In this document: positions 33,871 to 52,068 of the stretch, piece by piece
Layout of the letters: each line of letters starts with the position of its first letter
How positions within the stretch are numbered: position 1 is the stretch's first letter
Assembly: GCF_000970325.1 (NCBI RefSeq)
Contig: NZ_CP009518.1
Location: forward strand, 1,364,001-1,428,000
DNA: 64,000 nt
Direction of reading: 5' to 3'
Source of the DNA: Methanococcoides methylutens MM1
GTDB lineage: Archaea > Halobacteriota > Methanosarcinia > Methanosarcinales > Methanosarcinaceae
Notes under the pieces: model-generated
What the model was told of the DNA's origin: nothing
Database searches by the model: none
What the model saw: only the letters and a program-made list of their open reading frames with translations
Position numbers and translations under genes: made by a program

Positions 33871-34083
33871 GATCATCCTCTTTTTATTATTACTTGCTTT
33901 CCCATCCGAATTATCTTACTCAATAACTCAGCTGGAACTTTAAGGGATTATATTTTGAAAGTATGGATATTGTGTGTTCTTAGATATTATTAACGTTTTT
34001 CTTGTCCTGACCTCAACAGCAAAACAGATGTAGCAAAAACAAATCACAAACTCAAACACCCCTTAAATCTTTAATTCCCCATA

Positions 34084-34664
34084 CGACAGGACCGAGCTCA
34101 TCTATAAGATCGGAATCCTGTCCTCTGTTTCTTCCATTGCCAATGCATCCTGGATCTTCGCATGGCACTATGAAATAATCCCATTATCCATGTTGCTGAT
34201 GATCGTTATCCTCATTTGCCTGATCCTTATAAATCAGCTGACAAGCAGGGAACAGTTTTCTGGAAACGAATCTTTCTTTATCAGGCTTCCATTTAGCGTT
34301 TACTTCGGATGGATCACAGTAGCAACCATTGCGAATGCCACTATACTTCTTGTCAGCCTGGGCTGGAAAGACTTCATTTTGAGTGACACTTCCTGGACTG
34401 TTATAGTAATTGCTTTAGGACTTTTTATCGGCCTTGCAACCATGCTGAAGAACAGGGATGTTGCCTACGGACTCGTTATTGTCTGGGCTTATTCAGGAAT
34501 ATTGCTGAAGCATACTTCGACTGAAGGATTTGGGGGGCAGTATCCTGTGATAATCAATACGACGATTGGGTGTATTGTGTTGTTGCTTCTTGGTGTGGTT
34601 TATTTGTTGATTTCAAAAAGGAAGAGGATGGGGTATTGAGTGAAGTTGGGTGGGAGAGGTATTC
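34084..34664 (+). pseudogene. 5'-truncated TspO-like copy B
   Basis: From CGACAGGACCGAGC at 34084 the sequence is nearly identical to 31649 onwards, missing the first ~83 codons. It stays open to TGA at 34639 and the similarity continues ~25 bases past it. The first ATG inside (34190) would start a protein in the middle of a membrane helix, so a functional product is unlikely. Upstream (34046-34083) lies CACCCCTTAAATCTTTAA, similar to the sequence before the UvrD-like gene (near 27130-27150), perhaps a shared promoter type. Confidence 0.85.
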
Positions 34665-34836
34665 AGTAAATCACAAAGTAGAACTGATCTGGAGACACCT
34701 GACCAACTGGCATCTATTACCTAACCTGAACCACTGATAAAATATAGTTGAAACTGATAAAAAATAAAATATATTTTTAACAATAGGCTATTAAAGGAAA
34801 TAGGCTTTCTACACAGCCATATTATACTAATTAAAT

Positions 34837-37800
34837 TTAAGCAAAGCTTTCATCATTGGTTTTTTCTATAAACGCTGATATTTTCTGCATATGCACAGGT
34901 GTATAATACATGTGTTTCATCTGCCCTGCAACCACTACGTCAACTATATAATAATCACCCATTCTCTCTTCAACTTCTTCAGGAGCAACTTCATAGTTCA
35001 GGACTTTTTCAGCTATTTCTAAAATATTAGTCAAATCTCTTTGGGGATGATGTTTCATCAAAGCGTGGCAATTAGGACATAAACAAATAACATTAAACTC
35101 CATATTTGCCCAATCATGAGTGTTTTTTGCCTCAACCAACCTAAAAATTTCAAAATATGGTTGCTTATTAGAACCTAAATTTAATTTTGTATTACAAAGC
35201 TGACAATTTCCATTGTATTGTTCAAGCAAAAAATATTTTGGGTCAATTGAATCGATTATTTTACTAGTTTTTATAATCTCCTTTTTTTGTTGAATTTTAG
35301 TTTTATTAAAACGATCAGAAAGTTTTCCCCCATAATTTTCACGAACGGAATCTTCCTCATCTGGAGATATACTAGACCAACCTAATTTTTCATCATCTTC
35401 GACAGATGACTCCAGTCCTTTAGTAAGCGATTTTTCAAATTTATTTCTAATTTCAGAGGCTGATGATTTCTTCGAATTATCTTTGATTTCATCCATTGAC
35501 CTTATGAATTCTATAACTTTCTTTCTTTCACCATCAGTAAATTTTCGTGATTGTATTTCTGAAATGATTTCTCCAATTTCTGGATATTTCTCTTTCAAAT
35601 ACTGCTCCGCTTGTTGTTCAAATCCGCTTTTAAAATTAAGTTTTTCTGCAAGAGCTTTTGCGTCTGAACTTTCTGTTTCGAATTCTTTTGGTAAATCAGA
35701 GAGCATCAATTCAGATGTATTGTGGAATTTATGATCTTTGTCTGGAACCCAGGAATTTTCAATTAACAAGTCCCCAGATTTAGAGTATTTTTCTGATTTT
35801 GTAGAATTAGAATACTCTTTACGAGTTGAAGTTTCAACAATTCCAGAGATGTTTTTATAATTTTTCTTTAAAAGATTCCATAAAATAATCGCTTTCTCGA
35901 CAGTAATGCTGTTCAACGCAAATTGTAAACCTTCAATTTCAAAATCTGGATCAAAGCCATCTAAACCTCTTTTATGCCATCCATGTACATTGCAAATTGT
36001 TACATACCCATTCCAGCTAGAACTTCGACATTTATTATCTATTTTAGATATGCACCCCAACTTATAATAAAAAGTTATGTCAATGTCAAGATCAGAATAT
36101 AGATCATCTAAAATCCAGATATCTGGATTTCCTTCAAAGAAGATATCAATATCCTTGTTACCTGTAAATAATTCACCAAGATAAATTTCAGAAGGTTTTC
36201 GAAATGAAATATCTCCAGTACAGATATTTCTTGCATATAATATTGGAGTTAATTTTAATGCATCTAACAATTCTTCTGTTCTTTCTGAATCTGCTGGTGA
36301 CATTATCGTACTTGAAATCCACTCTATATGCTGTAGATGCTCTTTTTCATTAATTGATGAAATCGAATTGCAGCTATATAAAGGTAGTATTATATCAAAC
36401 ACTCCCGCCACTTTGTCAGGTTTCAACAAACCTAAATTTTCTAAAAATTCCTTTGCTTTTGAATCATTAGCAATTTCATCTTTGATTGTAGGGAAACGTT
36501 GTCTGAATTCAGAGGGAAAGTAAGCATTTGGTTTACCATTATTATCAAAAGGGGTCACATGTGCATCATTATCTAATCTAATAATATTCTTAAAAAGAAG
36601 GGGTCCTTGAGAATAATAGCTCTTTTTCCAGAGTGCTTTTTGATCTAGAAGAAAAGCATAGAATTTTTTGATCCAATCATCAGACTGTTTTTCAATAAAT
36701 TTTACAGAAAAATCCCTTGAAAATTTGTCAGGATCAATTTCAGGAATTGAAAGTTCATCTACCAAATAAGTTTTAAGTAGGGGAGTCTTATCTTTTGTTA
36801 TACTTCCATCAAGCCATTGAAGATTCTCATGACGCAACAAAATGCTAAGCTGGGTTGAAGATAACAGTTCTCTTAATGATTGTGTACTTGCTAATACTGA
36901 CTTTGCTGCAGTTATATATCCCCCGCTATATGAAGGAAGGAATGCTTCTTCACCAAGTAATTTTTCTTTTACTTTTTGAAATACAGGTAAAAACGTAGAA
37001 TCATCTTCGAATGTTTCGGCATCTAAAGGAAGAGTTTGCAAAAATGATAAGTCAAGCAAATCCATTTCTTTAACTTTACTTAAACTTTCAGCAGTAAGAA
37101 TAGCAATTTCCTTAATTAACAATTTATTCCAGTCGTTTTTGTAGATATTATCTCTAGAAGTCGTTGTTTGAAAGTCTCCCTGAATAAGAAAATTAAGATC
37201 TGTTTTTTTCTCAGTGGGGAAAAAAACTACCAAATTAGTGTCATTAGCTGGAACAATATGTTCTTTTTTTGACTTTTTATTAGTTTGAACTAAATATGCA
37301 ATTTGTACAGTTGATTTTTTTCTATCTTCAATAGAAATTGTTTTGCTAAATTTGAGCCATTTTTCTCTACTTTCTATATTTATGTTTGATTCAGAATATA
37401 GACTGATCCATGAAAACAAAGATTCATCATTTGATTTTTTGTAATATTTTCCATCTAATCCATCAACTTTCCAAGTAATTTCATCTATGTTTTTTAGAAA
37501 TAAGAGTGTTCTTAAACCCAAATTAGTTAATTTAGACTTTATCTCCAAATATGACTCATTAGAATCAATAGTATCATTGTTAAAAGGTATGATAAAAAGA
37601 GTTTGATCACTTTTCACATCATATCTTTGGTCTATTAAATGTGGGTGAACATAATTATTAATGCAGAAACAGTAATCTCCACTGTACACTTCTGGAGATT
37701 TTGTGTATGCATAAACAGATTTAAAACCAATACCAAACTTTCCGATTTGAGATATATCTTGCCTTTTAGTTCCTCTAGCTAGTCTACAAATTCCTTTAAT

Positions 37801-38061
37801 ATCTTCTTCATCAAATGGTATTCCATTATGACGAACCTCTAATCGATTAGGATATAATTCAAAATGAACCGATTTGGGATGTTTAGATTCTTTTTTCCCT
37901 AACCTCTCATAAGCATCTTCGGCATTCTGGAGAAGTTCATAAATGAAATGGGTTTTTTCACTATAGAGCTCTGTCAGCAATGTAGGTCCATATTCATTAA
38001 CAGCCGTACCATAAAGTCCAATATTTTCGTCCCTTATAAGATCATAAATGGTATCGTTCAT
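34837..38061 (-). CDS. GHKL (sacsin-like) ATPase fused to a C-terminal HNH endonuclease
   Basis: The 1074-residue protein starts with a GHKL ATPase domain (~1-200): LLQNAEDAYERLGK is the N-box, and QIGKFGIGFKSVYAYT the G2 box. The G1 box reads HNGIPF, a degenerate form of DxGxG. A long, mostly unassigned middle (~300-930) has no motif I can name. The C-terminus (~953-1000) is an HNH nuclease: CQLC...CPNCH with the VEAKNTHDWANMEFN active segment. The start ATG overlaps the helicase stop by 4 bases (ATGA), so the two genes are translationally coupled. Sacsin-type GHKL domains with nuclease ends occur in defence islands. The gene is A/T-rich. Confidence 0.85.
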   Translation of the reverse strand: MNDTIYDLIRDENIGLYGTAVNEYGPTLLTELYSEKTHFIYELLQNAEDAYERLGKKESKHPKSVHFELYPNRLEVRHNGIPFDEEDIKGICRLARGTKRQDISQIGKFGIGFKSVYAYTKSPEVYSGDYCFCINNYVHPHLIDQRYDVKSDQTLFIIPFNNDTIDSNESYLEIKSKLTNLGLRTLLFLKNIDEITWKVDGLDGKYYKKSNDESLFSWISLYSESNINIESREKWLKFSKTISIEDRKKSTVQIAYLVQTNKKSKKEHIVPANDTNLVVFFPTEKKTDLNFLIQGDFQTTTSRDNIYKNDWNKLLIKEIAILTAESLSKVKEMDLLDLSFLQTLPLDAETFEDDSTFLPVFQKVKEKLLGEEAFLPSYSGGYITAAKSVLASTQSLRELLSSTQLSILLRHENLQWLDGSITKDKTPLLKTYLVDELSIPEIDPDKFSRDFSVKFIEKQSDDWIKKFYAFLLDQKALWKKSYYSQGPLLFKNIIRLDNDAHVTPFDNNGKPNAYFPSEFRQRFPTIKDEIANDSKAKEFLENLGLLKPDKVAGVFDIILPLYSCNSISSINEKEHLQHIEWISSTIMSPADSERTEELLDALKLTPILYARNICTGDISFRKPSEIYLGELFTGNKDIDIFFEGNPDIWILDDLYSDLDIDITFYYKLGCISKIDNKCRSSSWNGYVTICNVHGWHKRGLDGFDPDFEIEGLQFALNSITVEKAIILWNLLKKNYKNISGIVETSTRKEYSNSTKSEKYSKSGDLLIENSWVPDKDHKFHNTSELMLSDLPKEFETESSDAKALAEKLNFKSGFEQQAEQYLKEKYPEIGEIISEIQSRKFTDGERKKVIEFIRSMDEIKDNSKKSSASEIRNKFEKSLTKGLESSVEDDEKLGWSSISPDEEDSVRENYGGKLSDRFNKTKIQQKKEIIKTSKIIDSIDPKYFLLEQYNGNCQLCNTKLNLGSNKQPYFEIFRLVEAKNTHDWANMEFNVICLCPNCHALMKHHPQRDLTNILEIAEKVLNYEVAPEEVEERMGDYYIVDVVVAGQMKHMYYTPVHMQKISAFIEKTNDESFA

Positions 38062-41000
38062 AATTGCTCCCCAACTTTAATGTGGACAATCGCTTCTAAA
38101 TTATAATCAAGTGATAATTCCTGACGATGCTGAAGTTCTTTGATTTTGCCCATATGTTTTGCTTTTTTACTATCAATTCTCCCTTTCATTAGACGCATAA
38201 ATCTTTCATCTGGTTTTTCCCCCTCAGCACTTTGTTTTTCAATATGTCTTTGTAAACTATTTTGTAGTTTTTCGACTTGTTTCTCACAGGATTCTGTCAA
38301 AGCGGTTATTCTACTATCAATTTTAAAGCGGTTTTCTTCCGAAGCGACACGACGTTTTTCTTCCAGAATTTCATCGAGATAATCTCTTGCGACTTCCAAT
38401 AACTCATAAACATCAATGTATTCTGATTCAATTGTTGGATTTTCAATTGAGTCATAAGCTAACAAGCGAGGGATTTTTTCAAATGAAGTTTCATAAACAG
38501 TTTTTGTATTGATATTCACTGGCAATCCTAAAAATTCAATCTCAGTTCTTAAGCCCTCCATACGTACTTCAAATAAAAATACAACATATTCTCCATTGAG
38601 AATATATGATTCAGATGGATTAATACTGAATCTAAATATCTTATATAATGCCTTTTCTTTTTCTAGTTGATGTGTCAAAAATCTTGACCAATATCCAGTA
38701 GGTGAAAGAAATATGTGATCTAGGCAAGTTTCTGCAAGCTGACCATCAAAAACAACTTTCACAGAACTTTTGGTATCAAACAATGCTTTAAGTTCATTGA
38801 AAGTCCCTTCGTTCCCTGGTTTTCTTGAAAATGTTTCTAGTTGGGTAATGATAGTAGGAGATAATTTTATAATGGCTCTACTTTCATCAAGTTTATCAAA
38901 ATTGCAATTCTCATGCATCAAAAGATAAGTTCGTGTTAAATCCATCGCATCGGATGGGCTGACGAAATCTCCTTTAGATATACTATTTATTGGTTTGACA
39001 AGATAATCGTCACCTAATAATTCAGTTCTATATTTTTCAAATTGTTCATATTCTGCTTTTGCTGCCTCAATTGCTTCCTGCAGACGTTGAGACATTTCAT
39101 CTTTTTGTTCATCAGAAAGGTTTCCAGAGATTATTGCCGTTTGAATATCAGCAATTTCTTTACCCATTATAGGTTCAAATGCGCCGATGCCTTCTTCCAC
39201 TAGATTGATTCGACGATAGAGACGATCATATATCTCTTCATCAACTGAATTTTTAATGAACATGTTTCCAACAATTATCTTATCGGCATTCTGTCCAAAT
39301 CGATCAATTCTCCCAATCCTCTGCTCTATCCTCATCGGATTATATGGAAGGTCGTAGTTGAAAATTGCATGACAGTACTGGAAATCGAGTCCTTCACCAC
39401 CGACTTCACTGGAAAGAAGAATATCATATTTCCCTTTTTCAAATGAATCCATCGTCTGAGACCTGTCAATGTCTTCTTTATTTTTCGCCACCTGCGAAAT
39501 TTTTCCATGAATAATTCCAACACTATACCCATCCTTTTCAAGACTTCTTTTCAGATGTTCCAGTGTCTCGACAAAAAATGAAAAAACTATAACTTGAGGA
39601 GTCTCAGGATTTAGAATTATCTTATCTAGCATCTTCTTAAACTGAGAATATTTGCTGTCAATATGGCAAATTTCCTCCAGTTCATCTAATAGCATTTGAA
39701 AATTCACTTTGAGGGACGGAGACAATATGGTTTTGTTAATTTCTGAATCATCTTCATATTCATTAATCTCGGATAAACTGGGTATATCAAAAACTCTATT
39801 ATCTCTTATTGAAGCTTCAAGGTAGTTTTTCATGGCTGGAATGCAGCTACTTATCATCCTGCGGTATGTATTTGTAATAAACCCGAGAATTTGTGGATCC
39901 CTTCCCATGGACAAATAATAATTCTGTATTACTTCTAATGCATGATCTTGAAACCTCAGTTCTTTATCCGAGAGGGTGACTGGTAATTCTAGCACTTCTC
40001 TATGAACCTGATGCTCTAACGCCTCTCTTTTACGAGTTCGTGTAAATGAATAACTGAGTGGGTTTAATGACACTAATAATCTGTCATACCTTACCAACTC
40101 TTCAGGAGAAAGAATCTCTTCCTTATTTAGCCTCTGAATAAAGTCAACAATCTCTTCGTGTTGCGATATTATTTTACCCAAAGGATCGCTTGCAAGCTCC
40201 ACAAATTGAAAAACGATCTCAGATCTCTTTTCAACTGTGTTTTGAGATAATAAACGTCTTATTCGATTTATTATAACAACCGGTCTGTATAAAGCTTCAA
40301 ATGTTGCCCGATCTGGAAAAGCAACTTTGTTAAGAATATGCATTTGATTGTACAAATCATCGCTACTGAGATTCAAAGGTGTAGCTGAAAGCATGAGCAT
40401 CATTTCAGCCATATCACTCAACGCGCTTCCCAATTTATTGCTGTCGGTATCAGGATTTCTCATATGATGTGCTTCATCGATTACAACTAAATCAAATGTT
40501 GCCGCTTCTCTCCTCGAATCCAATTCGTTTAAGAGATCGAGATATTCTTTTCTCCTGAATAGTTGTAAACCAACTATAGAAAAAGCATATTTTCTTGGAA
40601 AAATACCATCTTGTATGGCACTGTTCAAGACATAGCTAAGTTTTTTACCATCGAGTACTTCGAAGTCTAAAAAGAAACGCTCTTTCATCTCCCGTGCCCA
40701 TTTTTGGGTAAGGGAATTCGGGCAGACTATTAATATAGGTGTACTATGTGTCAATCTTTCTCTTGCAAGCATTTCAGTTACAATGATTCCCGTTTCAATG
40801 GTTTTGCCTACTCCAACCTCATCGGCTATGAAAAGTCTTTCATCAGAGTTAGGAGATATAAACTTTAACAAAGGCTTGAATTGATACGGATTAAAAATCG
40901 TTTTACTACCCAGATAACTGTAAAGATTACTTTCAAGTGGTTTGGAGAGCCGAAACCATGTTTGAAATATTTTATATTGAGAACTGTCTCCTAATTCATC

Positions 41001-41711
41001 TTGATAAAAATTCTCAAGAATGTCATCTTCTGGGTCTGAATACAGCTCTAGATACTTTTCAGCGAATGTACGTGTTTTCCCATCTACCGTCACCTGGTAA
41101 GAGAAATCTCTCGAACCTTTAATTACTTTATTAATAGTTCCAATTTTTCTTGTACTGGTCACTATTACATTGTTTCCTGCCTCAAAAATGGGTTGTTTGG
41201 ACATCGAATCCACCTCGATAAATTGATCTGTTTTCTGGGATTTTACCCATAAGCCTTCAAAGTTTGAAATTAATTTTATAGCCTCAGGATCATTTACTCT
41301 GTGAACAACAGACGAGGCAAATTCAATATTTTTGAAGAAACCAGATGCTGTGACATTAACAGAGCCAATAACAGCTTTAACTTCATTATCTGTACGAAAA
41401 ATATAATTTTTACTATGAAAAAATTCTTCACTTGAATAAATACGTGCTTCTACGCCAGGAAGTTCCAAAATTTGATTCAATATCTCAAATCGTTTCTCAG
41501 GAGTTGGAGCGAATCTATCACTCAATAATATTTTGATGTTTATATCGTGGTTCACTATTGAGTTTGCCAGAGTATGAGATAATCTCTTAAGAAAATCTAC
41601 CCCATAAGATCCAAAGTAAGCTGAAGAGATAGCACATTCAATCGCCCCTCTTGCAATCGCTAAAATTTCATCTTCCCAATCAGCTGAGATATACTTGAAA
41701 TTTTTAATCAT
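38058..41711 (-). CDS. PLD-domain SNF2-type helicase
   Basis: The protein has 1217 residues. Residues ~1-160 are a phospholipase-D-type domain with His99, Lys101, Asp108 and GSVN at 116-119: one complete HxK(x)D(x)GSxN half-site, as in single-motif PLD nucleases. The helicase follows: Walker A DEVGVGKT at 297-304, DEAH at 412-415, then RecA2 motifs with SSEVGGEGLDFQ and RIEQRIGRIDRFGQ. The C-terminal ~300 residues are a coiled-coil tail. It is the first gene of an operon with the GHKL-HNH gene. A PLD-linked helicase fits DNA cutting coupled to translocation. Confidence 0.9.
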   Translation of the reverse strand: MIKNFKYISADWEDEILAIARGAIECAISSAYFGSYGVDFLKRLSHTLANSIVNHDINIKILLSDRFAPTPEKRFEILNQILELPGVEARIYSSEEFFHSKNYIFRTDNEVKAVIGSVNVTASGFFKNIEFASSVVHRVNDPEAIKLISNFEGLWVKSQKTDQFIEVDSMSKQPIFEAGNNVIVTSTRKIGTINKVIKGSRDFSYQVTVDGKTRTFAEKYLELYSDPEDDILENFYQDELGDSSQYKIFQTWFRLSKPLESNLYSYLGSKTIFNPYQFKPLLKFISPNSDERLFIADEVGVGKTIETGIIVTEMLARERLTHSTPILIVCPNSLTQKWAREMKERFFLDFEVLDGKKLSYVLNSAIQDGIFPRKYAFSIVGLQLFRRKEYLDLLNELDSRREAATFDLVVIDEAHHMRNPDTDSNKLGSALSDMAEMMLMLSATPLNLSSDDLYNQMHILNKVAFPDRATFEALYRPVVIINRIRRLLSQNTVEKRSEIVFQFVELASDPLGKIISQHEEIVDFIQRLNKEEILSPEELVRYDRLLVSLNPLSYSFTRTRKREALEHQVHREVLELPVTLSDKELRFQDHALEVIQNYYLSMGRDPQILGFITNTYRRMISSCIPAMKNYLEASIRDNRVFDIPSLSEINEYEDDSEINKTILSPSLKVNFQMLLDELEEICHIDSKYSQFKKMLDKIILNPETPQVIVFSFFVETLEHLKRSLEKDGYSVGIIHGKISQVAKNKEDIDRSQTMDSFEKGKYDILLSSEVGGEGLDFQYCHAIFNYDLPYNPMRIEQRIGRIDRFGQNADKIIVGNMFIKNSVDEEIYDRLYRRINLVEEGIGAFEPIMGKEIADIQTAIISGNLSDEQKDEMSQRLQEAIEAAKAEYEQFEKYRTELLGDDYLVKPINSISKGDFVSPSDAMDLTRTYLLMHENCNFDKLDESRAIIKLSPTIITQLETFSRKPGNEGTFNELKALFDTKSSVKVVFDGQLAETCLDHIFLSPTGYWSRFLTHQLEKEKALYKIFRFSINPSESYILNGEYVVFLFEVRMEGLRTEIEFLGLPVNINTKTVYETSFEKIPRLLAYDSIENPTIESEYIDVYELLEVARDYLDEILEEKRRVASEENRFKIDSRITALTESCEKQVEKLQNSLQRHIEKQSAEGEKPDERFMRLMKGRIDSKKAKHMGKIKELQHRQELSLDYNLEAIVHIKVGEQL

Positions 41712-42017
41712 ATGAAGATTCCAGCAAGTTTATACAACAATTTGAAATTATTTGATTATATATAATATTTTATTGAGAGATTTGCATTATCAAATAAAAT
41801 CCAACGATTAAAAAGCCTCTTTTCTAGACTAAACTAATCAGTGAAAATTTTAATAATAAAGACACCTGTTTATGTTTGAACTACAAATAAAAATTTATAC
41901 CCTATTTTGTCTAAAAAGTATTTAAAATTTATGACATAGTTATCTTTGAATTCATATGGGCAATTCAGTTATCAGCCATCAGAAATTACACCATCACTTT
42001 CGAATTATTATGGAATT
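41712..42017. other. A/T-rich spacer upstream of the helicase operon
   Basis: No ORF of credible length was found. The minus strand should hold the promoter of the helicase/GHKL operon; several A/T boxes (for example near 41760-41775) are possible TATA elements, none decisive. Confidence 0.4.
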
Positions 42018-42163
42018 GCAACATTTGGGTATCAGTATCCTGCAATTATTAATACAACGATTGGGTGTATTGGGTTGTTGCTTCTTGGTTAGGCTTATCT
42101 GTTGATTTCAAAAAGGAAGAGGATGGGGCATTGAGTGAAGTTGGGCGGGGGCGGGATTCAAGA
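42018..42163 (+). pseudogene. TspO-like 3'-end remnant (copy C)
   Basis: From about 42024 the sequence matches the last ~140 bases of the TspO-like gene, including CAGTATCCTG, ACGATTGGGTGTATTGGGTTGTTGCTTCTTGG and the tail GATGGGGCATTGAGTGAAG. It differs from copies A and B by an in-frame TAG (GGTTAGGCT) in the last helix, so it is dead. The end abuts the mcrC stop. Confidence 0.85.
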
Positions 42164-42164
42164 T

Positions 42165-43196
42165 TCATGCTATTATTTCTAACAAATCATTCTTGATGTA
42201 ATGCCAATCCTGATTGAGATTTATTGACATTATCCTGATCCTGTGATTTTCGTAATTGTAACAAAAACTAAAGTTACTCTCAACAGCTGGATATAATAAA
42301 ATTCCTTCACACGATTTGGTGATTTCCGACTCTGATTCTTGATTTTTCAGGTAGGAGAACAACTGATATAGGTTATTTGAATTTATTTTTTCTTGCGAAA
42401 ATCTGGTCTTAAGAGCTTCTTTATAGTATTTGGTATCAATTATTATTTTTCTTGAAGCCGATTGCAATGAAATATCAGTAATCATTATTGGCAACATTGA
42501 TAAATCATTTTCATTTTCAGATGTTAATTTCCAGTTTATCTCTTCGATTTTTACATTGAATTCTGATTGTTCAATTTTATAGAAATTTCTAACAAATGAC
42601 TCAAACAATCTTGCCATTGCCTTTTCTTCTCGCAAGAAATCTTTAAATTTGTAGTCTCCTGATGATTCATCAATAAACAAATTCTCATTGATAATCTGAC
42701 ACACTTTCAGTGAAAAATCATAATTGTAATTGTTTCTATGTAATCTGATTTGTTTAAAATGAGAATTCCTAATTTTAATTTCTGAAATTGGAGGGAGTTT
42801 AATTAGAAGTCTATGTAATTCATCTTTTAGTTCTCCATCGAGGTGATTTATCCTCAGAAGATTAGAAATTGTTGTTTTCAAAATCTGGTTATGTAAAATA
42901 TCATAATCAAATTCGTCATATACACAAACTGTTTTACTTGAATGAAGAGTATTTCTTTTAACAGAAGCAGAAAGATCTAATTTTCCTTTTATTCCATTTA
43001 CAACGTATTCATTTTCAACGTAATAACGATCTAAACCCTGTTTTAATAATCTTGATGTACTATTAATTAGGATTTTAGCAAATAGATCGATAAGCTCGGT
43101 GCTACTGATTGCTCTAACATCGACAATATCGCTTTCATCAAGCTTATTCCAAGCATAACATAAAAGATAATAAAGATTTTCAATTGGAATTGGCAT
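42165..43196 (-). CDS. mcrC: McrC-like component of the McrBC restriction system
   Basis: The 343-residue protein starts PIPIENLYYLLCYAW, as McrC proteins do. Its C-terminal half is a PD-(D/E)XK nuclease with IIDTKYYKEAL carrying the catalytic Asp and Lys; the first Asp is in the TDISL strand before it. McrC is the nuclease partner of McrB and cuts DNA with modified bases. The gene starts 8 bases after the mcrB stop in the same operon. Confidence 0.9.
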   Translation of the reverse strand: MPIPIENLYYLLCYAWNKLDESDIVDVRAISSTELIDLFAKILINSTSRLLKQGLDRYYVENEYVVNGIKGKLDLSASVKRNTLHSSKTVCVYDEFDYDILHNQILKTTISNLLRINHLDGELKDELHRLLIKLPPISEIKIRNSHFKQIRLHRNNYNYDFSLKVCQIINENLFIDESSGDYKFKDFLREEKAMARLFESFVRNFYKIEQSEFNVKIEEINWKLTSENENDLSMLPIMITDISLQSASRKIIIDTKYYKEALKTRFSQEKINSNNLYQLFSYLKNQESESEITKSCEGILLYPAVESNFSFCYNYENHRIRIMSINLNQDWHYIKNDLLEIIA

Positions 43197-43204
43197 GTCT
43201 CTGA

Positions 43205-45763
43205 TCAGTCTAATAAACGATTTATCGCAGCTTGAGACTTTTCTATATCATCAAACCAGTATTCTTCTAAAAGAGGCTGAATTTCGTAATTTACGATATC
43301 TTCAAACCATTCATTTTCAGATTTGTCTTTCTTATTGTTGCAGAAAAAGCTGTGGCCTATCTGGAAACCTTCTCCAAGATTCTTATCGGACTTTATTTTT
43401 CCATTCAAAGAGTTGATCTTTGAAATCATATTGTCTACAAAACCTTTTGAAAAACTTTGTGAGATAAGCAAATCAATAAATTTCTGATTAAACTTTGGTC
43501 CTAATGGAATAAACCTGAACCTTCTTCTCAAAGCATAATCAACGATAGCGAGCGAACGATCAGCAGTGTTCATCGTACCGATCAAATAAAGATTTTCAGG
43601 AACAAAAAACGCTGCATCGTCTTTTTCAGAATAAGTTAAATGCACCTTATACTTACCCCGCTTGTCGGTTTCTATCAACATCATCAATTCTCCGAAAATC
43701 TTGCTAAGATTTCCTCTGTTGATTTCATCAATGATGAAGAAATACTTGTTATCAGGATCATTCTCTGCTTTTTTGCAAAAATTGTAAAAAATACCGTTCT
43801 TTACTTTAAAGGTATTTCCTGATGGCCGAATACCCTGAATAAAGTCTTCATATGAATACGATTGGTGGAACTGAACCATTTCAATTTTTGTATCATCGGT
43901 ACTCTTCATAATTTCATAAGCAATTTTTTTGGCGACAAAGGTTTTGCCTACACCTGGAGGACCCTGCAATACAACGTTCTTCTTAATTTCAAGTGCATCT
44001 AATATAGTCTTAAGTTCAGAATCTTCAATAAAAGGTTTCTCAGGATCTGTAGAAAATGAATATTCTTTGATATCGATTATTTCTTTTTCTAATTCGTTAT
44101 TGATATTCCTTTCATCTATAAGATCCCTAATAATATCAAATTCTTCAGCTGTCAAGCTGAATAAGCTTCCTTGATTATTTTTAATAACTTCACAGTCTTC
44201 TAGCCCTTTTGTTTCCTTTAGATCATCCCAGGTAATGGTATCTGTGACTAATTCCTTTATTTCAAAACTGATTATTTCGTCTTCGTTCTCATCGTTATGT
44301 AGCCCCTCCACAATTTCAAATATTCCTTTGATTTGCTTAACAGGCGTACTTTCATAACCAATTACAAGATCTCCCGGTGCCACCTCTTCGAAATATTTGT
44401 ACACCCTTCTTTTGTTGCCTTTGCTATTATGGGATGTATAGGACTGGATATCCCCTAACTCATAGCTGTCAATTTTCCAGATTTTTGGATTTGCATTTAA
44501 CCACCAATAATTTTGAGTCCCATAATCACTTGGCAATACTTTTGTGGGAGGGAGAGTCTCTTTTCCAGCTTCTAATTCATCAAATATTTTTCTATAAGAA
44601 GCATCGGCATCGATATATTTTTCTTTAATTCTTTCCCATTTAAGAGTTGGCGAAAATGTATCTGCTCTAAAAATAGTTTTCTCAAAATCGATTTGTCGAT
44701 TTATGAGCCATTTTACTTTCCTAATATGTTTATATTCAGTTCTTTCATCATCAAAAACATATTCTCCTTCTATTACTCCAATTCCCAAACATTTTTTTCT
44801 GCCTTTGTTAGCAACAATTATATCACCAATACTTGCATCACGAAAACTTTCAATATTCCAGATCTGATTGGAAATGGAAGAATTCTCAACATTCAAAGTT
44901 TCAGCAAGTTCCTCAGTTGTATATTTATTGAGATCTCCTAGCCCATCCCAGCCTATTGCAATTATGCCTTCTTTATAAAACTCATCCCAACGGCTAGCAT
45001 TTTCACCAGGCGCAAATTTCCAATAATCAATAAGTAAATTGTTTTTATTTGCAGCCTCTTCTTTTGAGGATTCCAGTTGTTCAATAACCTCTTCGATAGT
45101 ATTAAACTCATCAACTGTATTGGAAGCTTTATCATTTATATCCGAGCCAGGAGCGATTCCAGCTTCCATAATTTGGTCATGGATACGTAAAAATAATTGG
45201 TAGGATTTGCGATGAGACACCCTTTTTTTAGGAAACAAAGCAATCCAGGAAGAGGAAGCACCGTAATTTTGTGCCCCTTCGAATCCAACAATGTGCTTTT
45301 TGTAGAATTCTAATTTCAGCGTATTCATTAGCTCTTCTGCGATGTTTTCAAGAGCATTATCGGATTCTTCTTCATCTGCTGATCGATAAAAGAATGGGAA
45401 AAGAATACTGAAATATTTCGCCCAGTTCACGAAAGGGCTTTTCTTTTTTTCAGGATAACGAATCAATCCGTTTAATATTGATTCATCATATTTCGAAAAG
45501 TAATCTGTATCTTTTGCAATTATTTTCTCTTTAATAAATTCGATTAATTCAGTTGTTACTGTATTCTTATATTTTATATTGTTCAATATTTCAAGACGCA
45601 AAAGATTTACTGGCTGGAATCTGTCACGCGTATAGTGATTAATAAGTTGATCTACAATTTCAGAGTCAAGGTCATTTAATTGTTCGAAAAGATAACTTTC
45701 ACTTTCTTCTAGCTTTTTTAACCTTTTAGCATGTCCCTGAATAATATCAATCGATTCTTGCAT
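43205..45763 (-). CDS. mcrB: McrB-like GTPase with two PUA/EVE-type modified-base readers
   Basis: The protein has 852 residues. The first ~240 residues are helical with no clear assignment. Two modified-base-reading modules follow: ~245-390 (YWKFAPGENASRWDEF and later GDIIVANKG), and ~420-500 (NYWWLNANPKIWKI, GDLVIGYESTP), of EVE/PUA type. The AAA+ GTPase starts about 590: Walker A GPPGVGKT (~601), Walker B FFIIDEINRG (~675), and MNTADRS (~731), the McrB GTP signature. ATG 45763 was chosen because GGGTG lies five bases upstream. Confidence 0.92.
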   Translation of the reverse strand: MQESIDIIQGHAKRLKKLEESESYLFEQLNDLDSEIVDQLINHYTRDRFQPVNLLRLEILNNIKYKNTVTTELIEFIKEKIIAKDTDYFSKYDESILNGLIRYPEKKKSPFVNWAKYFSILFPFFYRSADEEESDNALENIAEELMNTLKLEFYKKHIVGFEGAQNYGASSSWIALFPKKRVSHRKSYQLFLRIHDQIMEAGIAPGSDINDKASNTVDEFNTIEEVIEQLESSKEEAANKNNLLIDYWKFAPGENASRWDEFYKEGIIAIGWDGLGDLNKYTTEELAETLNVENSSISNQIWNIESFRDASIGDIIVANKGRKKCLGIGVIEGEYVFDDERTEYKHIRKVKWLINRQIDFEKTIFRADTFSPTLKWERIKEKYIDADASYRKIFDELEAGKETLPPTKVLPSDYGTQNYWWLNANPKIWKIDSYELGDIQSYTSHNSKGNKRRVYKYFEEVAPGDLVIGYESTPVKQIKGIFEIVEGLHNDENEDEIISFEIKELVTDTITWDDLKETKGLEDCEVIKNNQGSLFSLTAEEFDIIRDLIDERNINNELEKEIIDIKEYSFSTDPEKPFIEDSELKTILDALEIKKNVVLQGPPGVGKTFVAKKIAYEIMKSTDDTKIEMVQFHQSYSYEDFIQGIRPSGNTFKVKNGIFYNFCKKAENDPDNKYFFIIDEINRGNLSKIFGELMMLIETDKRGKYKVHLTYSEKDDAAFFVPENLYLIGTMNTADRSLAIVDYALRRRFRFIPLGPKFNQKFIDLLISQSFSKGFVDNMISKINSLNGKIKSDKNLGEGFQIGHSFFCNNKKDKSENEWFEDIVNYEIQPLLEEYWFDDIEKSQAAINRLLD

Positions 45764-45923
45764 TTTCGCACCCACTCTGAAAATTGATCATACAGTAATT
45801 ACCACTATTAATATCGTTATTGTAAGAATATATTTAAGATTAAGATTGGCAGCCAAGATTAAGCAAATCGTTCTTTGTTTTGATTTATTCAATCAAAATA
45901 TACACTCATTGAACATATGATAG

Positions 45924-45942
45924 ATATTCTCAATGAGAATAT
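45924..45942. repeat. 8-bp perfect palindromic stem (ATATTCTC - AAT - GAGAATAT)
   Basis: The sequence lies in the divergent spacer between mcrB and the cas1 remnant, about 160 bases upstream of the mcrB start. It may be a regulator's operator; no binding data exist. Confidence 0.3.
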
Positions 45943-45968
45943 ATATTTTCCTATTTTTGATCACTTAA

Positions 45969-46420
45969 AATTCATTGATCTTGAATATGTGCTCAAATAG
46001 CATAGACAAGAAGGACTCCATTAGGACAGAGAATTATTCAATGAAGCTCAGGCCCAGTGGGGCTAAGAAACTGACTGAAGAAATCAGTTGGTGGTTCAAT
46101 AAAAGAGTTAGATATCAAAACAAAATCCAATGTGGAGCTATGTTATTCTCCTGAAAGCTAGAGAATTAGCTTATTATTTGACTGGTAAACGAAAAGAAAT
46201 CGACTTTTTGGAACCACAATATACGACAAAACGACAGGATTCAAGCGACATGCGACAGAAGATCCTCAGTATATCGTATTCTGATTGGAAAAAGCTAGGT
46301 TTTTCAAAAGGAACATTACATTATATGAAGAAAAATGCCGAAGCTGATAAGCATTTTATGCTTAATGCACATGTAAGAGAACGCTTGAATCAATGGGAAA
46401 AACTTGTCGCAAACGGTTAA
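45969..46420 (+). pseudogene. cas1: cas1 3'-end remnant with one frameshift
   Basis: Joined across one shift near 46131-46134, the two frames give ~150 residues like the C-terminus of CRISPR-associated Cas1. The first frame, open from 45969, ends ...RYQNKIQC; the second (ATG 46130) goes on WSYVILLKARELAYYLTGKR, then LGFSKGTLHYMKKNA and the end. One lost base (TGT-TGG to TGT-GG) explains the break. The first ~200 residues, and the catalytic part, are missing. Upstream is a stop and no cas gene. It marks a lost CRISPR-Cas locus. Confidence 0.75.
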
Positions 46421-46528
46421 TTATGTGTTGTTTTTTGTCGTTTTATCGTTTTTGTGTCGTTTTTCTATGTAAATTAAGCGACAATTTCAGACGACAAAAA
46501 CGACAGATTAAGCGACATTAAAACGACA
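46224..46528. repeat. Dense cluster of CGACA pentamers (12 in ~305 bases)
   Basis: CGACA on the plus strand starts at 46224, 46232, 46246, 46253, 46479, 46492, 46501, 46513 and 46524. Its reverse, TGTCG, starts at 46405, 46436 and 46455. A block at 46223-46257 in the cas1 end, ACGACAAAACGACA..., recurs at 46491-46528. Chance would give less than one in this length. No spacers of CRISPR type lie between them. Confidence 0.6.
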
Positions 46529-46794
46529 AAACAACAGATTCGGGGACAAGAGACACATTCTCAGGAAACAAATGAGACAAGTTTAAATATTGAATAGTAG
46601 CTTGGACAAGTACAAGATGTATAAATTCAAAATGTGTATTATTCGAACCATTTGGATAAAAATATTTATGCTAATTCTTATTCAGAAATAAAAGAGAGTC
46701 TTAGATTTTTTAAAGTTGTAATGAACCGTTTGTCTTATGTCAACAAGTAATCAGGTTCAAACTTAAATATCTAGGGAACAATAAGTGGAGCAGA
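46421..46794. other. Spacer between cas1 remnant and methyltransferase operon
   Basis: There is no ORF worth reporting in this 374-base stretch. It holds most of the CGACA cluster (up to 46528), then A/T-rich DNA with a TATA-like CTTAAATAT at 46762-46770, about 30 bases before the D12 methyltransferase ATG. Confidence 0.5.
46762..46770 (+). promoter_or_regulatory. TATA box of the methyltransferase operon
   Basis: CTTAAATAT lies about 25-33 bases before the ATG at 46795, giving a nearly leaderless transcript; a GGAG lies 4 bases before the ATG. Confidence 0.5.
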
Positions 46795-48069
46795 ATGAAT
46801 CATTTTAGCCAAGCGTTTGAAGGAAAACAACACATGAACATGAATTCTCCCCTACCTATGCAGTATTTAGGTTCAAAAACTAGAATATCTAACTGGGTAG
46901 TAAGCAATATAAAAGATAGTTTTCCATCATCTACAACATTAATTGATTTATTTGGCGGTTCTGGAAGTATATCATTTTCAGCTTTAAAATATGATTATAC
47001 ATTATATATTAATGATGTACAGCCATATTCATATATAATTTTAAAATCAATATTTTCAGAAAGCAGAGATGGTTTAAAAGAATTAGCAAATGATATTTTG
47101 AAACTGAAAGATGAAAAATATCTATTAAGAAACTCTCGAAGTGATGCGAGAAACTTATTGGAAAAAGAAACGATTTTATTCAATAAGCATCAAGATAAAT
47201 CATTAGATTGGGTAGAGTATAAAGAATTCTGTGAAACAACCCCACTATTGTCTGGCAATAAAGAAGAAATAATGAAATTAAGAAAAGACAACGATTGGAA
47301 CCTTTTTTTTAAATATTATGCCAACACATATTTTGGAATAAAACAATGTTTAGTCTTGGACAAACTAAGAGAGTATGCAGAAGGGCTAAGTCCTAATTTA
47401 AGATGTCATCTTATAGCATCAACTATTTCGGTGATGACTTTTGCAGTGTCAAGTACTACTCATTTAGCTCAGTTTCTAAAACCAACGTCAAAAAAGCGGG
47501 TAGACAATCTTATCAATAAAAGAGATATTGATATTATAGACAAAGTATCAGATAGGCTTAAACAACTATCTAAGTCACCGCTTCCAAAATATACTTCAAC
47601 TATCCTGAATCTTGATTTTAAAGATGCACTTTGCAATATAGATCTAAATAAGAACTCAATTGTTTATGTAGATCCTCCATATTTCAAAGAACACTATTCA
47701 AGATATTACCATGTCCTTGATACTTTCTACTTATATGATTATCCCCATCTAACCATCAATCCAAGGATTAATAAAGTTACAATAGGTAGATATCGTGAAG
47801 ACCGTTTTGTAAGTGAATTTGGATTAAAAAGTAAGGTTAAAAAAGCTTTTGAAAATTTATTTGACTTATGCTATGAATGTAAAGCTAACATTGTATTAAG
47901 TTATGCAGATACATCTTTACTAAAAAAGGAAATAATTCTTGAAATTGCAGAAAATTCTGGGTACAGGGGCCATGTTAAACAAAAAAAGTTAATGCATACT
48001 GGGCAAGGACAGCCTAGAAACAAAAAAGTAATAGAATACCTCTATTTTTTTGAACCAAATGGGGATTGA
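46795..48069 (+). CDS. D12-class DNA N6-adenine methyltransferase
   Basis: The 424-residue protein has the Dam/D12 order: MQYLGSKTRI near residue 22 (SAM-related motif X), LIDLFGGSGSISF at ~49 (motif I), then the target-recognition segment and VYVDPPYF near residue 300 (motif IV). It methylates adenine N6 in a defined sequence. Length is greater than Dam, with an extended recognition region. GGAG lies 4 bases before the ATG. The next gene overlaps its end by 11 bases. Confidence 0.88.
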   Translation: MNHFSQAFEGKQHMNMNSPLPMQYLGSKTRISNWVVSNIKDSFPSSTTLIDLFGGSGSISFSALKYDYTLYINDVQPYSYIILKSIFSESRDGLKELANDILKLKDEKYLLRNSRSDARNLLEKETILFNKHQDKSLDWVEYKEFCETTPLLSGNKEEIMKLRKDNDWNLFFKYYANTYFGIKQCLVLDKLREYAEGLSPNLRCHLIASTISVMTFAVSSTTHLAQFLKPTSKKRVDNLINKRDIDIIDKVSDRLKQLSKSPLPKYTSTILNLDFKDALCNIDLNKNSIVYVDPPYFKEHYSRYYHVLDTFYLYDYPHLTINPRINKVTIGRYREDRFVSEFGLKSKVKKAFENLFDLCYECKANIVLSYADTSLLKKEIILEIAENSGYRGHVKQKKLMHTGQGQPRNKKVIEYLYFFEPNGD

Positions 48070-49702
48070 GTTGGACCGGATTATTAAGCTAAAAAAAGAG
48101 TTAGAAAAGGGTGTACCTGAGCATGATACTCCTGTAGGTCTGATTCACCCATATTGGGCAAGAAAACCTATGAATATTGTAAGTAAAATTATAGAATGTT
48201 TAGCGGAGCCAGACGACTTAATATTAGATCCTTTTATGGGCTCAGGTACGACTATTTTTTCTGCGATATCTAACAAAAAATCAATAATAGGGACTGATAT
48301 AAATCCACTTTCAGTTTTTCTAGTAAAGACACTTTTAGATATATCAAAAGAATCTGAAGAGATATTAAAATCCGCAAGGGATTTTGTGGATGAGTTTGAA
48401 AGTAATGTTCTTCCATGGTATAAATTAGCAAATGACGATACGTACATAGAAAGAGAGAGATTTCAAGTTAATGGGAATTTTGAAAATGGGAATTTTTCAT
48501 TGAATTTAGCCGAAATTGTTACGAAGAAGAAAGTTGGCAATAAATGGAAAGGCAGGAAAGCTCTTACATCATTTGATAGAATTAATTATGTCGACATTCC
48601 TAAACGATATATGTCCCATCCAATAAATTTTGAAAGCATAGAATTATTAGCAAATTCAAGAATTGCAATACCACGTGGAGCAAAACTCTCACATTTTTAT
48701 TCTTATAGAAATATGGCCGCAATAAATTTTGCTCTAAATTTAATAAATAAATCTAAAGCACCCCTTTATGCAAAAGACATATATTTGCTTCTCTTATCAT
48801 CCTCACTTCCATTATTGAGATTTTCAGACAAGAAAGCTTCATCACAGTGGCCGTACTGGCGCCCTAAAAAAATGCTTACTTCTAGAAATCCTGTAATAGT
48901 ATTTGAGAAGAGATTACAAGCCTTAGATAATGTTGCAAAATGGTGGGATGATAATAATGTTGATTTCAAAATCTCAAATATGAAAAACATTACAAAATCT
49001 AACCGACACAATCCTACAGTATGTGTAGAGTGCGCGGCTATACAAGAATTAAAAAATATTATCCCTAGCGACACAAAAGTTGATCTTATTATAACTGATC
49101 CCCCATATTCTGACCAAGTACCTTATCTTGAATATTCGGCGCTATGGATAGAAATATTAAATCTTAAACTGCCTGTTGATGCTTATATGCATGAAATTGT
49201 TAAAACTAATGCAGAAAAACGTATTGTTGATTCAGCCAGCTACTTGAAAAGATTATCAGAGGCCTTAGAGATTTGCTGTAATCTTGTAAAAATAAATGGC
49301 TTAATAGTGTGGTTTTATCAAGACCATGAATTGAAAAATTGGGCTTGTATCAATGATGTTGCAAAAAATAATAATGTTGAAGTTGTTGAAATAATTCCAA
49401 TACCAAAACAACGAAGATCAATGAAAACAGTTACCACTCCTGGCAAAACATTGGATGGAGATTTGATTTGCATATTCCAGAAAAAAGCAACACTGGATGC
49501 TAAAAAAGAAATTAGTTTTGAAACAATTATTGATAATCTTACAAATCAAATAAATTTAATAAATGAACAGTCTTTTTTCGATAAATATTCGCGTTTAATC
49601 GAATATTCTCTTAAGGAGAATTATATATCTATATTATCACAAAGATTTAAAACTGTTGATGACGTCTTGACCTTTATAATTGAGAATTCCGATAATTGTT
49701 GA
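48059..49702 (+). CDS. DNA methyltransferase of HPYWARKP / DPPYSD type
   Basis: The 547-residue protein has GLIHPYWARKPMNIV at the N-terminus (like the HxWWARRP opening of DUF1156/COG1743 methylases), ILDPFMGSGTTIF (motif I) and IITDPPYSDQVPYLEYS (motif IV). It is probably an amino-methyltransferase (N6-adenine or N4-cytosine); which base cannot be told. No nuclease domain is seen. ATG 48059 was used, since 48050 is TTG. It overlaps both the gene before (11 bases) and, within a few bases, the gene after. Confidence 0.85.
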   Translation: MGIELDRIIKLKKELEKGVPEHDTPVGLIHPYWARKPMNIVSKIIECLAEPDDLILDPFMGSGTTIFSAISNKKSIIGTDINPLSVFLVKTLLDISKESEEILKSARDFVDEFESNVLPWYKLANDDTYIERERFQVNGNFENGNFSLNLAEIVTKKKVGNKWKGRKALTSFDRINYVDIPKRYMSHPINFESIELLANSRIAIPRGAKLSHFYSYRNMAAINFALNLINKSKAPLYAKDIYLLLLSSSLPLLRFSDKKASSQWPYWRPKKMLTSRNPVIVFEKRLQALDNVAKWWDDNNVDFKISNMKNITKSNRHNPTVCVECAAIQELKNIIPSDTKVDLIITDPPYSDQVPYLEYSALWIEILNLKLPVDAYMHEIVKTNAEKRIVDSASYLKRLSEALEICCNLVKINGLIVWFYQDHELKNWACINDVAKNNNVEVVEIIPIPKQRRSMKTVTTPGKTLDGDLICIFQKKATLDAKKEISFETIIDNLTNQINLINEQSFFDKYSRLIEYSLKENYISILSQRFKTVDDVLTFIIENSDNC

Positions 49703-49713
49703 AGGTAATAGAT

Positions 49714-52068
49714 ATGTATTGGCTTCTGAAAAAAGACGAACAAGAAATCATTCGAGAAAATGTAGATAAACTCGTTCAGAGGCTATCTCAAATTAGTGGT
49801 AATGTACAAGTCGACCAGTTATTTCCATATGTTGGAAGAAAGGATCGACGAAAAGCTGTAGCAATAATTGATGAATTAACAGATGAAGAAGACACAATTG
49901 TTGATTCTTTTGTAGGTTCTGGTATTTTTATTTACGGTGCTTCAGAATTGGGGAGAAATTGTTTGGGAAATGAATGGGAACCCTACGCATACCGTATGGC
50001 AAATGCTCCTTGGAGGTTACCTCCAATCGAAGCTATAAAAAAAGCCATTGATCAATTACTCAAGCTGATTAAAATAGATTTTGATTTTTTGTATCGCACT
50101 GTTTGCCCTTGTGGCCATATACACGTTTTAGATAGCCTGTTTTTCGATAGAAATCCTCTAAAATATAACCAGATATCAGCACACAAACGCTTAGGAAATG
50201 ATGGTGAGAATATAACATATAGGAAGCAATACAGATGCCCTATTTGTAGGCGGACTGAAAAACATTTTGATGCTTCAGATGCGGCTCACATGGAAACAAT
50301 ATCAAAAATGAATGTTCCAGCAAAATACTTGAAAATATTTGGCTCACCACTTATTGAAAATTCAAGAATTAATTTATCATCTGAATATACTCAATATGGA
50401 AATTTGTTTCCACATCGTTCCAAAATCGCGTTATCTTTGCTTTGGGATGGAATTTCTCAATTAGAATGTGAAGAGAATGTTAAATTGTTTTTGGAAGACG
50501 CATTTCTTTCAATACTTCCCCAAGCTAAATACAGAGATTATAGAGGCAAAAGTCAAGACTTACATGTGCCTCCTATAAAATTAAGGGAAGTAAATATCTT
50601 ATATCGATTTTTGAGGCAAACTCAAAAACGCTACAGAGGACTTAGCAATTACAAATTTTCTTCAAATAATAATGTTTCACCTATTCATTGTTCAGATTAC
50701 AGAGATTTTATGTCGGAATTGGATTCATCTAGTGTCGATTTGGTTTTAACGGATCCTCCATGGACAGATGGTAATGCATACTTTGAAAAAGCTCAGTTGT
50801 ATCATCCTTGGCTCAATTATAGTTTATTAGAAGACGATATCAGACTCAAAAAAGAATGTGTTGTAACCGATGCTCCTTCTAGAAGAGAAGAACACAACAT
50901 GGAAAATTGGCAAAAAGATATTGCTGAATTTTTCAATGAAGCAGGCAGAATTCTAAAAGATTTAAAATATTTAGCTTTATTCTTTAGACCTATTCCTGCT
51001 AGACACTGGCTTGAAAATTTAAATTCATTGAAATTACTTGCTAGAAAGGCTGGATTTGAACCCCTTTTAAGCATAGACGTTTCTAGTCCTGATCCTTCAA
51101 TGCGATTACAACAAAGTGCTTCTTATTTAATTTCAGAAGACATTGTATTTCTGTTCGTAAAACTACCGGATGAGCTAAAACGCTATTATTACAATGATTT
51201 TGACATAGATCAACTCGTATTTCAGGTTGGTGAGCAAATACAAGAAGACGTCCACGGTCCGTTCACCTATAAAAATTGGAGAGCATGTCTCTCTGACTGT
51301 TTTATAAAAAAAGGAATTTCTGAGATGAATTCTCCAAAAATGGAAGGTAAAATAAGTGAATTATTTAGTAGATATCACGATGAAATTACTCCTGGTTTAT
51401 ATTTGCCAAAAGCTCTAACTCCCTTTTCTGGACAATTATTTGATACTCCAGCTATTGAAAGAATGTTTACATACGTTCCTACAGTAATTTCAGAACTAAC
51501 TGAAGGTGGCAATACATTTTCTTATGAAAGATTTCTTTTAAAGCTATCTGAATATGTCGAAAATGGTACTAAAGCTCTCATCCATGAAATTCAACAAATT
51601 GATATGAAAGGACTAATTGAAGTTTATGCCGAGCCCATTGAAGGTGGAGGTAAATTTAGAAGAAGAGAGTTACCCAAATTACCAAACGGTTTGAGGAATA
51701 TTTTAGAAATGGATCCTTATGATTTTGAAGCGTTTGTTGGTCAAATATTAGATGCACAGGGTTTTAGCTCAATAGCGCTAGTTGGTAGGGCTGGAGATCG
51801 GGGTGTAGATCTAGTGGCAACTGATCCTGAAGGCCACTCAACTATTGTGCAATGTAAACGATACATTGAAAACAATGTGTCTAGCATTCCAGTCCAAAGA
51901 TTACATAGTTATGCTCTCACTAGAGGAGCGCAAAGACAAATATTGATAACAACCTCTGATTTTACATTACAAGCTAAACAAGAAGCAGAACTTACAAAAA
52001 CTGAATTAATAAACGGAAAAGAACTAGAAACATTGATTGCTACCTATCTTCCTGATTACTTCAATTAA
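49714..52068 (+). CDS. DNA methyltransferase fused to an Mrr-type nuclease
   Basis: The protein has 784 residues. The N-terminal half is a methyltransferase: VDSFVGSGIFIYGASE (motif I) and LVLTDPPWTDGNAY (motif IV, DPPW), with a zinc-ribbon-like CPCG...CPIC between them. The C-terminal ~115 residues are a Mrr_cat nuclease: FEAFVGQIL, GRAGDRGVDLVAT and IVQCKRY, with the catalytic Asp and QxK. The one polypeptide thus both modifies and may cut DNA. ATG 49714 was taken, with AAGGT seven bases upstream; TTG 49696 overlaps the previous gene. It is the last gene of the operon. Confidence 0.88.
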   Translation: MYWLLKKDEQEIIRENVDKLVQRLSQISGNVQVDQLFPYVGRKDRRKAVAIIDELTDEEDTIVDSFVGSGIFIYGASELGRNCLGNEWEPYAYRMANAPWRLPPIEAIKKAIDQLLKLIKIDFDFLYRTVCPCGHIHVLDSLFFDRNPLKYNQISAHKRLGNDGENITYRKQYRCPICRRTEKHFDASDAAHMETISKMNVPAKYLKIFGSPLIENSRINLSSEYTQYGNLFPHRSKIALSLLWDGISQLECEENVKLFLEDAFLSILPQAKYRDYRGKSQDLHVPPIKLREVNILYRFLRQTQKRYRGLSNYKFSSNNNVSPIHCSDYRDFMSELDSSSVDLVLTDPPWTDGNAYFEKAQLYHPWLNYSLLEDDIRLKKECVVTDAPSRREEHNMENWQKDIAEFFNEAGRILKDLKYLALFFRPIPARHWLENLNSLKLLARKAGFEPLLSIDVSSPDPSMRLQQSASYLISEDIVFLFVKLPDELKRYYYNDFDIDQLVFQVGEQIQEDVHGPFTYKNWRACLSDCFIKKGISEMNSPKMEGKISELFSRYHDEITPGLYLPKALTPFSGQLFDTPAIERMFTYVPTVISELTEGGNTFSYERFLLKLSEYVENGTKALIHEIQQIDMKGLIEVYAEPIEGGGKFRRRELPKLPNGLRNILEMDPYDFEAFVGQILDAQGFSSIALVGRAGDRGVDLVATDPEGHSTIVQCKRYIENNVSSIPVQRLHSYALTRGAQRQILITTSDFTLQAKQEAELTKTELINGKELETLIATYLPDYFN

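Follow-up and report, generated by a model that had tools for sequence, protein, structure and literature searches.

Organization of the locus

The window, a 64,000-nucleotide stretch of the 2.39-Mb single-contig genome of Methanococcoides methylutens MM1, contains a block of ~17 kb (34837-52068) that is rich in candidate defence genes. The host family (Methanosarcinaceae) also includes Methanomethylovorans hollandica. A preliminary description had listed a helicase, an ATPase, three methylases and Mrr, HNH and PLD parts around McrBC, and every one of these is encoded by a long intact ORF whose assignment agrees with searches against Pfam, PADLOC and NCBIfam profiles. The GHKL-helicase pair and the McrBC pair lie on the minus strand, while the methyltransferase trio, with overlapping gene ends, lies on the plus strand. 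Each island gene has a G+C content of 29-35%, compared to 43-53% in the flanking UvrD-like (53%), TspO-like, SLFN/AlbA_2 and Sir2-like (50%) genes. Scans of the window for tRNAs and Rfam families found nothing. The features are as follows:

31401-32204, plus strand: TspO-like membrane protein gene on one side of the hotspot (named by eye, without a Pfam hit)
34084-34665, plus strand: further TspO-like copy, truncated, bordering module 1 on its low-coordinate side
34837-38061, minus strand: module 1, GHKL ATPase of the sacsin type with a McrA-like HNH zinc finger at its C-terminus (profiles)
38058-41711, minus strand: module 1, helicase with PLD and DrmD/RapA-like SNF2 domains (profiles)
42023-42161, plus strand: scar in the gap separating McrC from the helicase, a 138-nt duplicate of the TspO-like 3' end
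42165-43196, minus strand: module 2, McrC nuclease subunit (NCBIfam equivalog)
43205-45775, minus strand: module 2, McrB GTPase (AAA_5 profile) carrying one EVE domain plus another EVE-like region
45996-46421, plus strand: scar in the gap separating the trio from McrB, a piece from the 3' end of solo-type cas1
46795-48069, plus strand: module 3, D12-class (Dam-like) adenine methyltransferase (MethyltransfD12)
48050-49702, plus strand: module 3, alpha-type N4/N6 methyltransferase (N6_N4_Mtase)
49696-52068, plus strand: module 3, fusion of a methyltransferase with an Mrr_cat nuclease domain (N6_N4_Mtase and Mrr_cat)
52292-53041, plus strand: Sir2-like gene on the opposite side of the hotspot (named by eye)

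The helicase-GHKL pair

The GHKL protein of module 1 matches the SACS/GHKL Pfam model (7.8e-18) and the PADLOC TmtA profile (1.1e-74), the latter being a partial match (residues 27-789 against 32-808 of 1302) to a profile without a curated cut-off. Its C-terminus matches EcoKMcrA (7e-10) and TagI and keeps the CxxC...CPNC frame, but the segment with the conserved histidine, VHHVIP/GAHIRP in EcoKMcrA/TagI, reads FRLVEA in the window. Since this segment differs here and is not conserved in the GHKL family, the HNH domain is, judging from the sequence, probably a zinc finger without nuclease activity. The neighboring helicase combines PLDc_2, SNF2 and Helicase_C domains and scores best with DrmD in PADLOC (1.5e-117, 391.8 bits). 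Its PLD domain extends the N-terminus by ~156 residues and has no counterpart in any of the helicase relatives fetched. The HNH and PLD parts of the preliminary description are both present, the former without the conserved histidine segment and the latter as an extension of the helicase.

A search of 392 genomes of the phylum with the helicase (E <= 1e-40) returned nine other loci in eight genomes, and in all nine a GHKL/sacsin gene directly adjoins the helicase; two of these calls have Pfam SACS scores just under the curated cut-off, and those at L015 and L024 were made by similarity to the window protein. Neither the methyltransferase operon nor this McrBC is found in any of the nine loci within the ~10 kb inspected on each side. 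The M. hollandica plasmid pMETHO01 carries the pair (80% and 63% identity), where DNA homology to the window covers only 34849-41243. Helicases on bacterial plasmids have a GHKL partner in some cases (Rhizobium, L066) and a different neighbor in others. On the alphaproteobacterial plasmids of Aminobacter (L065, 11125-12894) and Sphingobium (L069, 11111-12874), for example, an unannotated protein of 587-589 aa, which gave no Pfam hit, replaces GHKL beside a DrmD-like helicase. Two distantly related archaeal genomes show the same order of a metallophosphoesterase, an AAA_27 (YhaN/Rad50-like) ATPase, a DrmD-like helicase and GHKL (L017, 8371-16128; L021, 4375-15263), with the first two proteins being homologous between them (41% and 30% identity, respectively), and this four-gene order is possibly an extended form of module 1.

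We infer that module 1 is a two-gene candidate antiviral system. The SNF2/RapA-like translocase would scan DNA and the sacsin-type GHKL ATPase would serve as an ATP-gated clamp or switch, while in this genome the PLD domain added to the helicase could provide the nuclease. As for the other two modules, such biochemical activities are predicted from domain content, and the antiviral effect and the order of acquisition of the modules are likewise predictions from sequence. The AlphaFold model of the GHKL protein has a mean pLDDT of 50, which is too low for fold comparison. No description of a GHKL-DrmD pair was found in the literature searched, the coverage of which was incomplete.

McrBC

McrC exceeds the cut-off of its NCBIfam equivalog (346 bits vs 338), and McrB contains an AAA_5 domain (4.2e-26) with the sequence MNTAD, so that both the McrC equivalog and the McrB-type AAA domain with NxxD expected of a type IV McrBC system are present. 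The McrB equivalog PRK11331 aligns to the AAA part only (338.8 vs 637). In such a system, recognition of modified bases would fall to the EVE-like domains of McrB and cleavage to McrC. Orthologues of both subunits (73-78% identity) occur in two other genomes of the family, both without either of the operons that flank McrBC here. Inspected by eye, one genome has BREX-like neighbors and the other has rubrerythrin-like and transporter-like ones. The DNA similarity runs from 42165, the stop codon of McrC, to ~45814, just upstream of the McrB start. Because the similarity stops at the ends of McrBC and the neighbors of the orthologues differ, McrBC behaves as a two-gene unit.

The three methyltransferases and Mrr

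The motifs of module 3 are intact in the window (DPPY, DPPY and DPPW in the trio, D...QCK in Mrr), and the fusion protein matches Mrr_cat (5.5e-27) and, weakly, mREase_IV. The methyltransferase-Mrr gene is found in one of 392 genomes of the phylum. Relatives came from a faecal contig (L025) and from a scan of 84,980 species genomes, performed with two peptide patterns only, which led to Lachnospiraceae and other Clostridia. The trio recurs in six Clostridia-type contigs, five of them complete and one (L032) ending at a contig edge. In all five complete loci the D12 and first alpha-type methyltransferases form one fused protein of 964-975 aa, whose gene converges on that of methyltransferase-Mrr. 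All six loci have an HTH gene ahead of methyltransferase-Mrr, and four of the six encode a 333-aa protein containing two ExK segments. Neither the helicase pair nor McrBC occurs in any of these six loci, which are closely related to each other and do not count as independent. A helicase search of five trio genomes (E <= 1e-10) found no homologue in four and, in the fifth, a distant one on a different contig. No relatives of the trio proteins were found in viral contigs. A match of the methyltransferase-Mrr gene on a haloarchaeal plasmid proved to be a distant methyltransferase within a BREX locus rather than a trio. The AlphaFold model of the methyltransferase-Mrr protein (mean pLDDT 41) is too low in confidence for fold comparison.

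Methyltransferase and nuclease are thus joined in one unit that is conserved from an archaeon to Clostridia, as in type II-like systems. Module 3 is best read as a restriction-modification system, in which the D12 and first alpha-type methyltransferases would shield host DNA at those sites that the methyltransferase-Mrr fusion would recognise and, if unmodified, cleave. Mrr-type nucleases are frequently modification-dependent. This, together with the weak mREase_IV match, speaks for a different reading, in which the fusion cuts foreign-methylated DNA and the methyltransferases are readers or have some other role. In the bacterial homologues, motif IV of the fused enzyme reads DFPY, pointing to a reader role in those proteins, but the window protein has an ordinary DPPW, and the controller-like HTH gene and the 333-aa protein with two ExK segments in the bacterial loci suit classical restriction-modification better, so that a modification-dependent fusion appears rather unlikely. 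No description of the three-methyltransferase and Mrr set was found in the literature searched, which was incompletely covered.

A second alternative to an autonomous restriction-modification module would join the trio to McrBC. LlaJI combines methyltransferases with McrBC-like subunits (PMC1459862), and by this precedent the methyltransferases would protect and a McrBC of altered specificity would cut unmodified DNA in a LlaJI-like restriction-modification system, with the helicase pair being separate. Distant relatives of the methyltransferase at 48050-49702 indeed adjoin genes for a McrB-like ATPase and DUF2357 on plasmids of Thiospirochaeta and Kurthia. However, two genomes have the orthologous McrBC but no methyltransferases of this kind, six loci have the trio, with its own Mrr nuclease, but no McrBC, the EVE domains of McrB are typical for readers of modified bases, and the cas1 fragment separates McrB from the trio. 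The constant linkage of McrBC and methyltransferases that a LlaJI-like system implies is therefore not seen, and we regard this joint system as distinctly improbable. The two plasmid loci (L026, 4784-11252; L027, 5317-10836) themselves show a LlaJI-like arrangement of DUF2357 and McrB-like ATPase genes with alpha-type and 5mC methyltransferases, the alpha-type enzyme of Kurthia (L027) being split over two ORFs.

Gene remnants and a probable defence hotspot

Both inner borders of the modules contain remnants of genes. Part of the gap between helicase and McrC is filled by the 138-nt copy of the TspO-like 3' end, and part of that between McrB and the trio by the final ~427 nt of a solo-type cas1 gene. 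The TspO-like gene is in addition partly duplicated at 34084-34665 (94% over 576 nt). For the short copy, the nearest gene is that of one genome of the genus (89%); for the long copy, it is that of a different one (95%). This difference, although drawn from short sequences, suggests that the copies were imported on different occasions. GCGACA, a motif seen around the cas1 remnant, does not exceed its expected frequency across the window. Pieces of ~100-200 nt from the 3' end of solo-type cas1 are scattered in genomes of the genus and family (L078-L082), many of them lacking the remainder of the gene. An AlbA_2/Schlafen-domain gene (32443-33876) that sits amid the TspO-like duplication may represent further hotspot cargo, and contains a 12-nt tandem repeat (32644-32703) encoding repeated TQQA.

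In four genomes of the genus, distances of 2.6, 3.0, 3.3 and 10.5 kb separate the TspO-like from the Sir2-like gene. The cargo in between is unrelated and includes NERD and SNF2 genes as well as genes that resemble type III restriction-modification. In one further genome of the genus the Sir2-like gene lies ~0.9 kb from the UvrD-like gene, free of cargo. The locus is best read as a defence hotspot between the UvrD-like/TspO-like pair and the Sir2-like gene.

Stacked modules or one composite system

It is very probable that the island consists of at least three independent modules that were separately acquired and stacked in one hotspot, because each set is found on its own elsewhere, the two inner borders contain gene remnants, and the hotspot holds other cargo or none elsewhere in the genus. 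The separate occurrence is consistent with the exact limits of the modules and with the gene remnants between them. Of the two possibilities raised in the preliminary description, stacked independent modules are thus borne out by the separate occurrence of each set, whereas a single multi-part modification-dependent immunity locus finds no support, the modules being apart in all loci examined. The linkage of the two operons, proposed there as a check, is absent in both directions, with the trio in 0 of 9 other archaeal helicase-GHKL loci and the helicase pair in 0 of 6 trio loci.

A composite is plausible in principle, since McrBC systems are reported often beside DISARM-like systems and methyltransferases (PMC11090510), LlaJI is a joint system, and BREX-related systems contain HKD-Snf2 helicases and DUF499 (PMC12839542), but the tests made here do not support it. 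In a composite related to DISARM or BREX, the methyltransferases would mark self and the remaining parts would attack unmarked DNA. The enclosure of all parts in a single AT-rich block, the reported company of McrBC (PMC11090510) and the resemblance of the helicase to DrmD would fit such a system. Against this, the helicase pair, McrBC and the trio are each found apart, which breaks the composite in the sampled loci; the two operons are oppositely oriented, and gene remnants occupy both inner borders. A single composite system is therefore very unlikely indeed. A rare linkage of helicase and trio may exist elsewhere, and the bound on it is loose, since few loci were counted and the bacterial ones with the trio are closely interrelated. 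As McrBC is reported to lie often near DISARM-like genes and methyltransferases (PMC11090510), the adjacency of the stacked modules could still have a functional meaning, including cooperation in this one host.

The tempting composite thereby gives way to three modules with clean borders, each of which can be cloned and assayed by itself, in a hotspot whose borders retain the scars of successive insertions. Two under-described units stand out, the helicase-GHKL pair and the three-methyltransferase/Mrr set. Tentatively, and with the balance slightly against it, the DrmD-like helicase and the sacsin-type GHKL may form an uncharacterised two-gene antiviral system of archaea and bacteria, distinct from DISARM and Tiamat and with a four-gene form, while the three-methyltransferase/Mrr set may be a restriction-modification arrangement, common to an archaeon and gut Clostridia, for which no description was found.

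Comparison with known systems

The DISARM core comprises drmA (helicase), drmB (DUF1998) and drmC (PLD) (PMC9142583). The island helicase is nearest to DrmD models (PADLOC 391.8 bits) and, like DrmC, has a PLD domain. However, it scores only 318 bits with the DrmD equivalog NF038317 (cut-off 610), and its partner is a GHKL ATPase. Profile searches found no island protein that is primarily DrmA or DrmB, the helicase scoring higher with DrmD than with DrmA, and no DUF1998.

The island resembles Hma/type-2 BR (PMC12839542) in the domain architecture of its helicase, where PLDc_2 and SNF2 recall the HKD(PLD)-Swi2/Snf2 fusion, and in its nearby methyltransferases, although these form a separate module. 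With the PLD-helicase equivalog NF042964, however, the helicase reaches only 191.6 bits, far below the cut-off of 1100. Such systems are expected to have a DUF499 ATPase and a DUF1156 methyltransferase; neither DUF499 nor DUF3780 was found in the island, and the DUF1156 model gave 27 bits (cut-off 1000). The early doubt about Hma, based on the ATPase being GHKL and not DUF499, was well placed, as no island protein matched the DUF499 ATPase.

The GHKL protein matches TmtA profiles of Tiamat, but the match is partial and the protein is constantly paired with a helicase and carries a C-terminal McrA-like finger. Type IV McrBC is resembled by the above-cut-off McrC and by the McrB AAA domain with MNTAD, the difference being the EVE and second EVE-like regions ahead of the AAA domain. 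As in LlaJI-like systems, the methyltransferases adjoin McrBC, and one has a distant relative in such plasmid loci; by contrast, the island modules part in relatives, the methyltransferases are of the N6/N4 type rather than 5mC, and the trio has its own nuclease.
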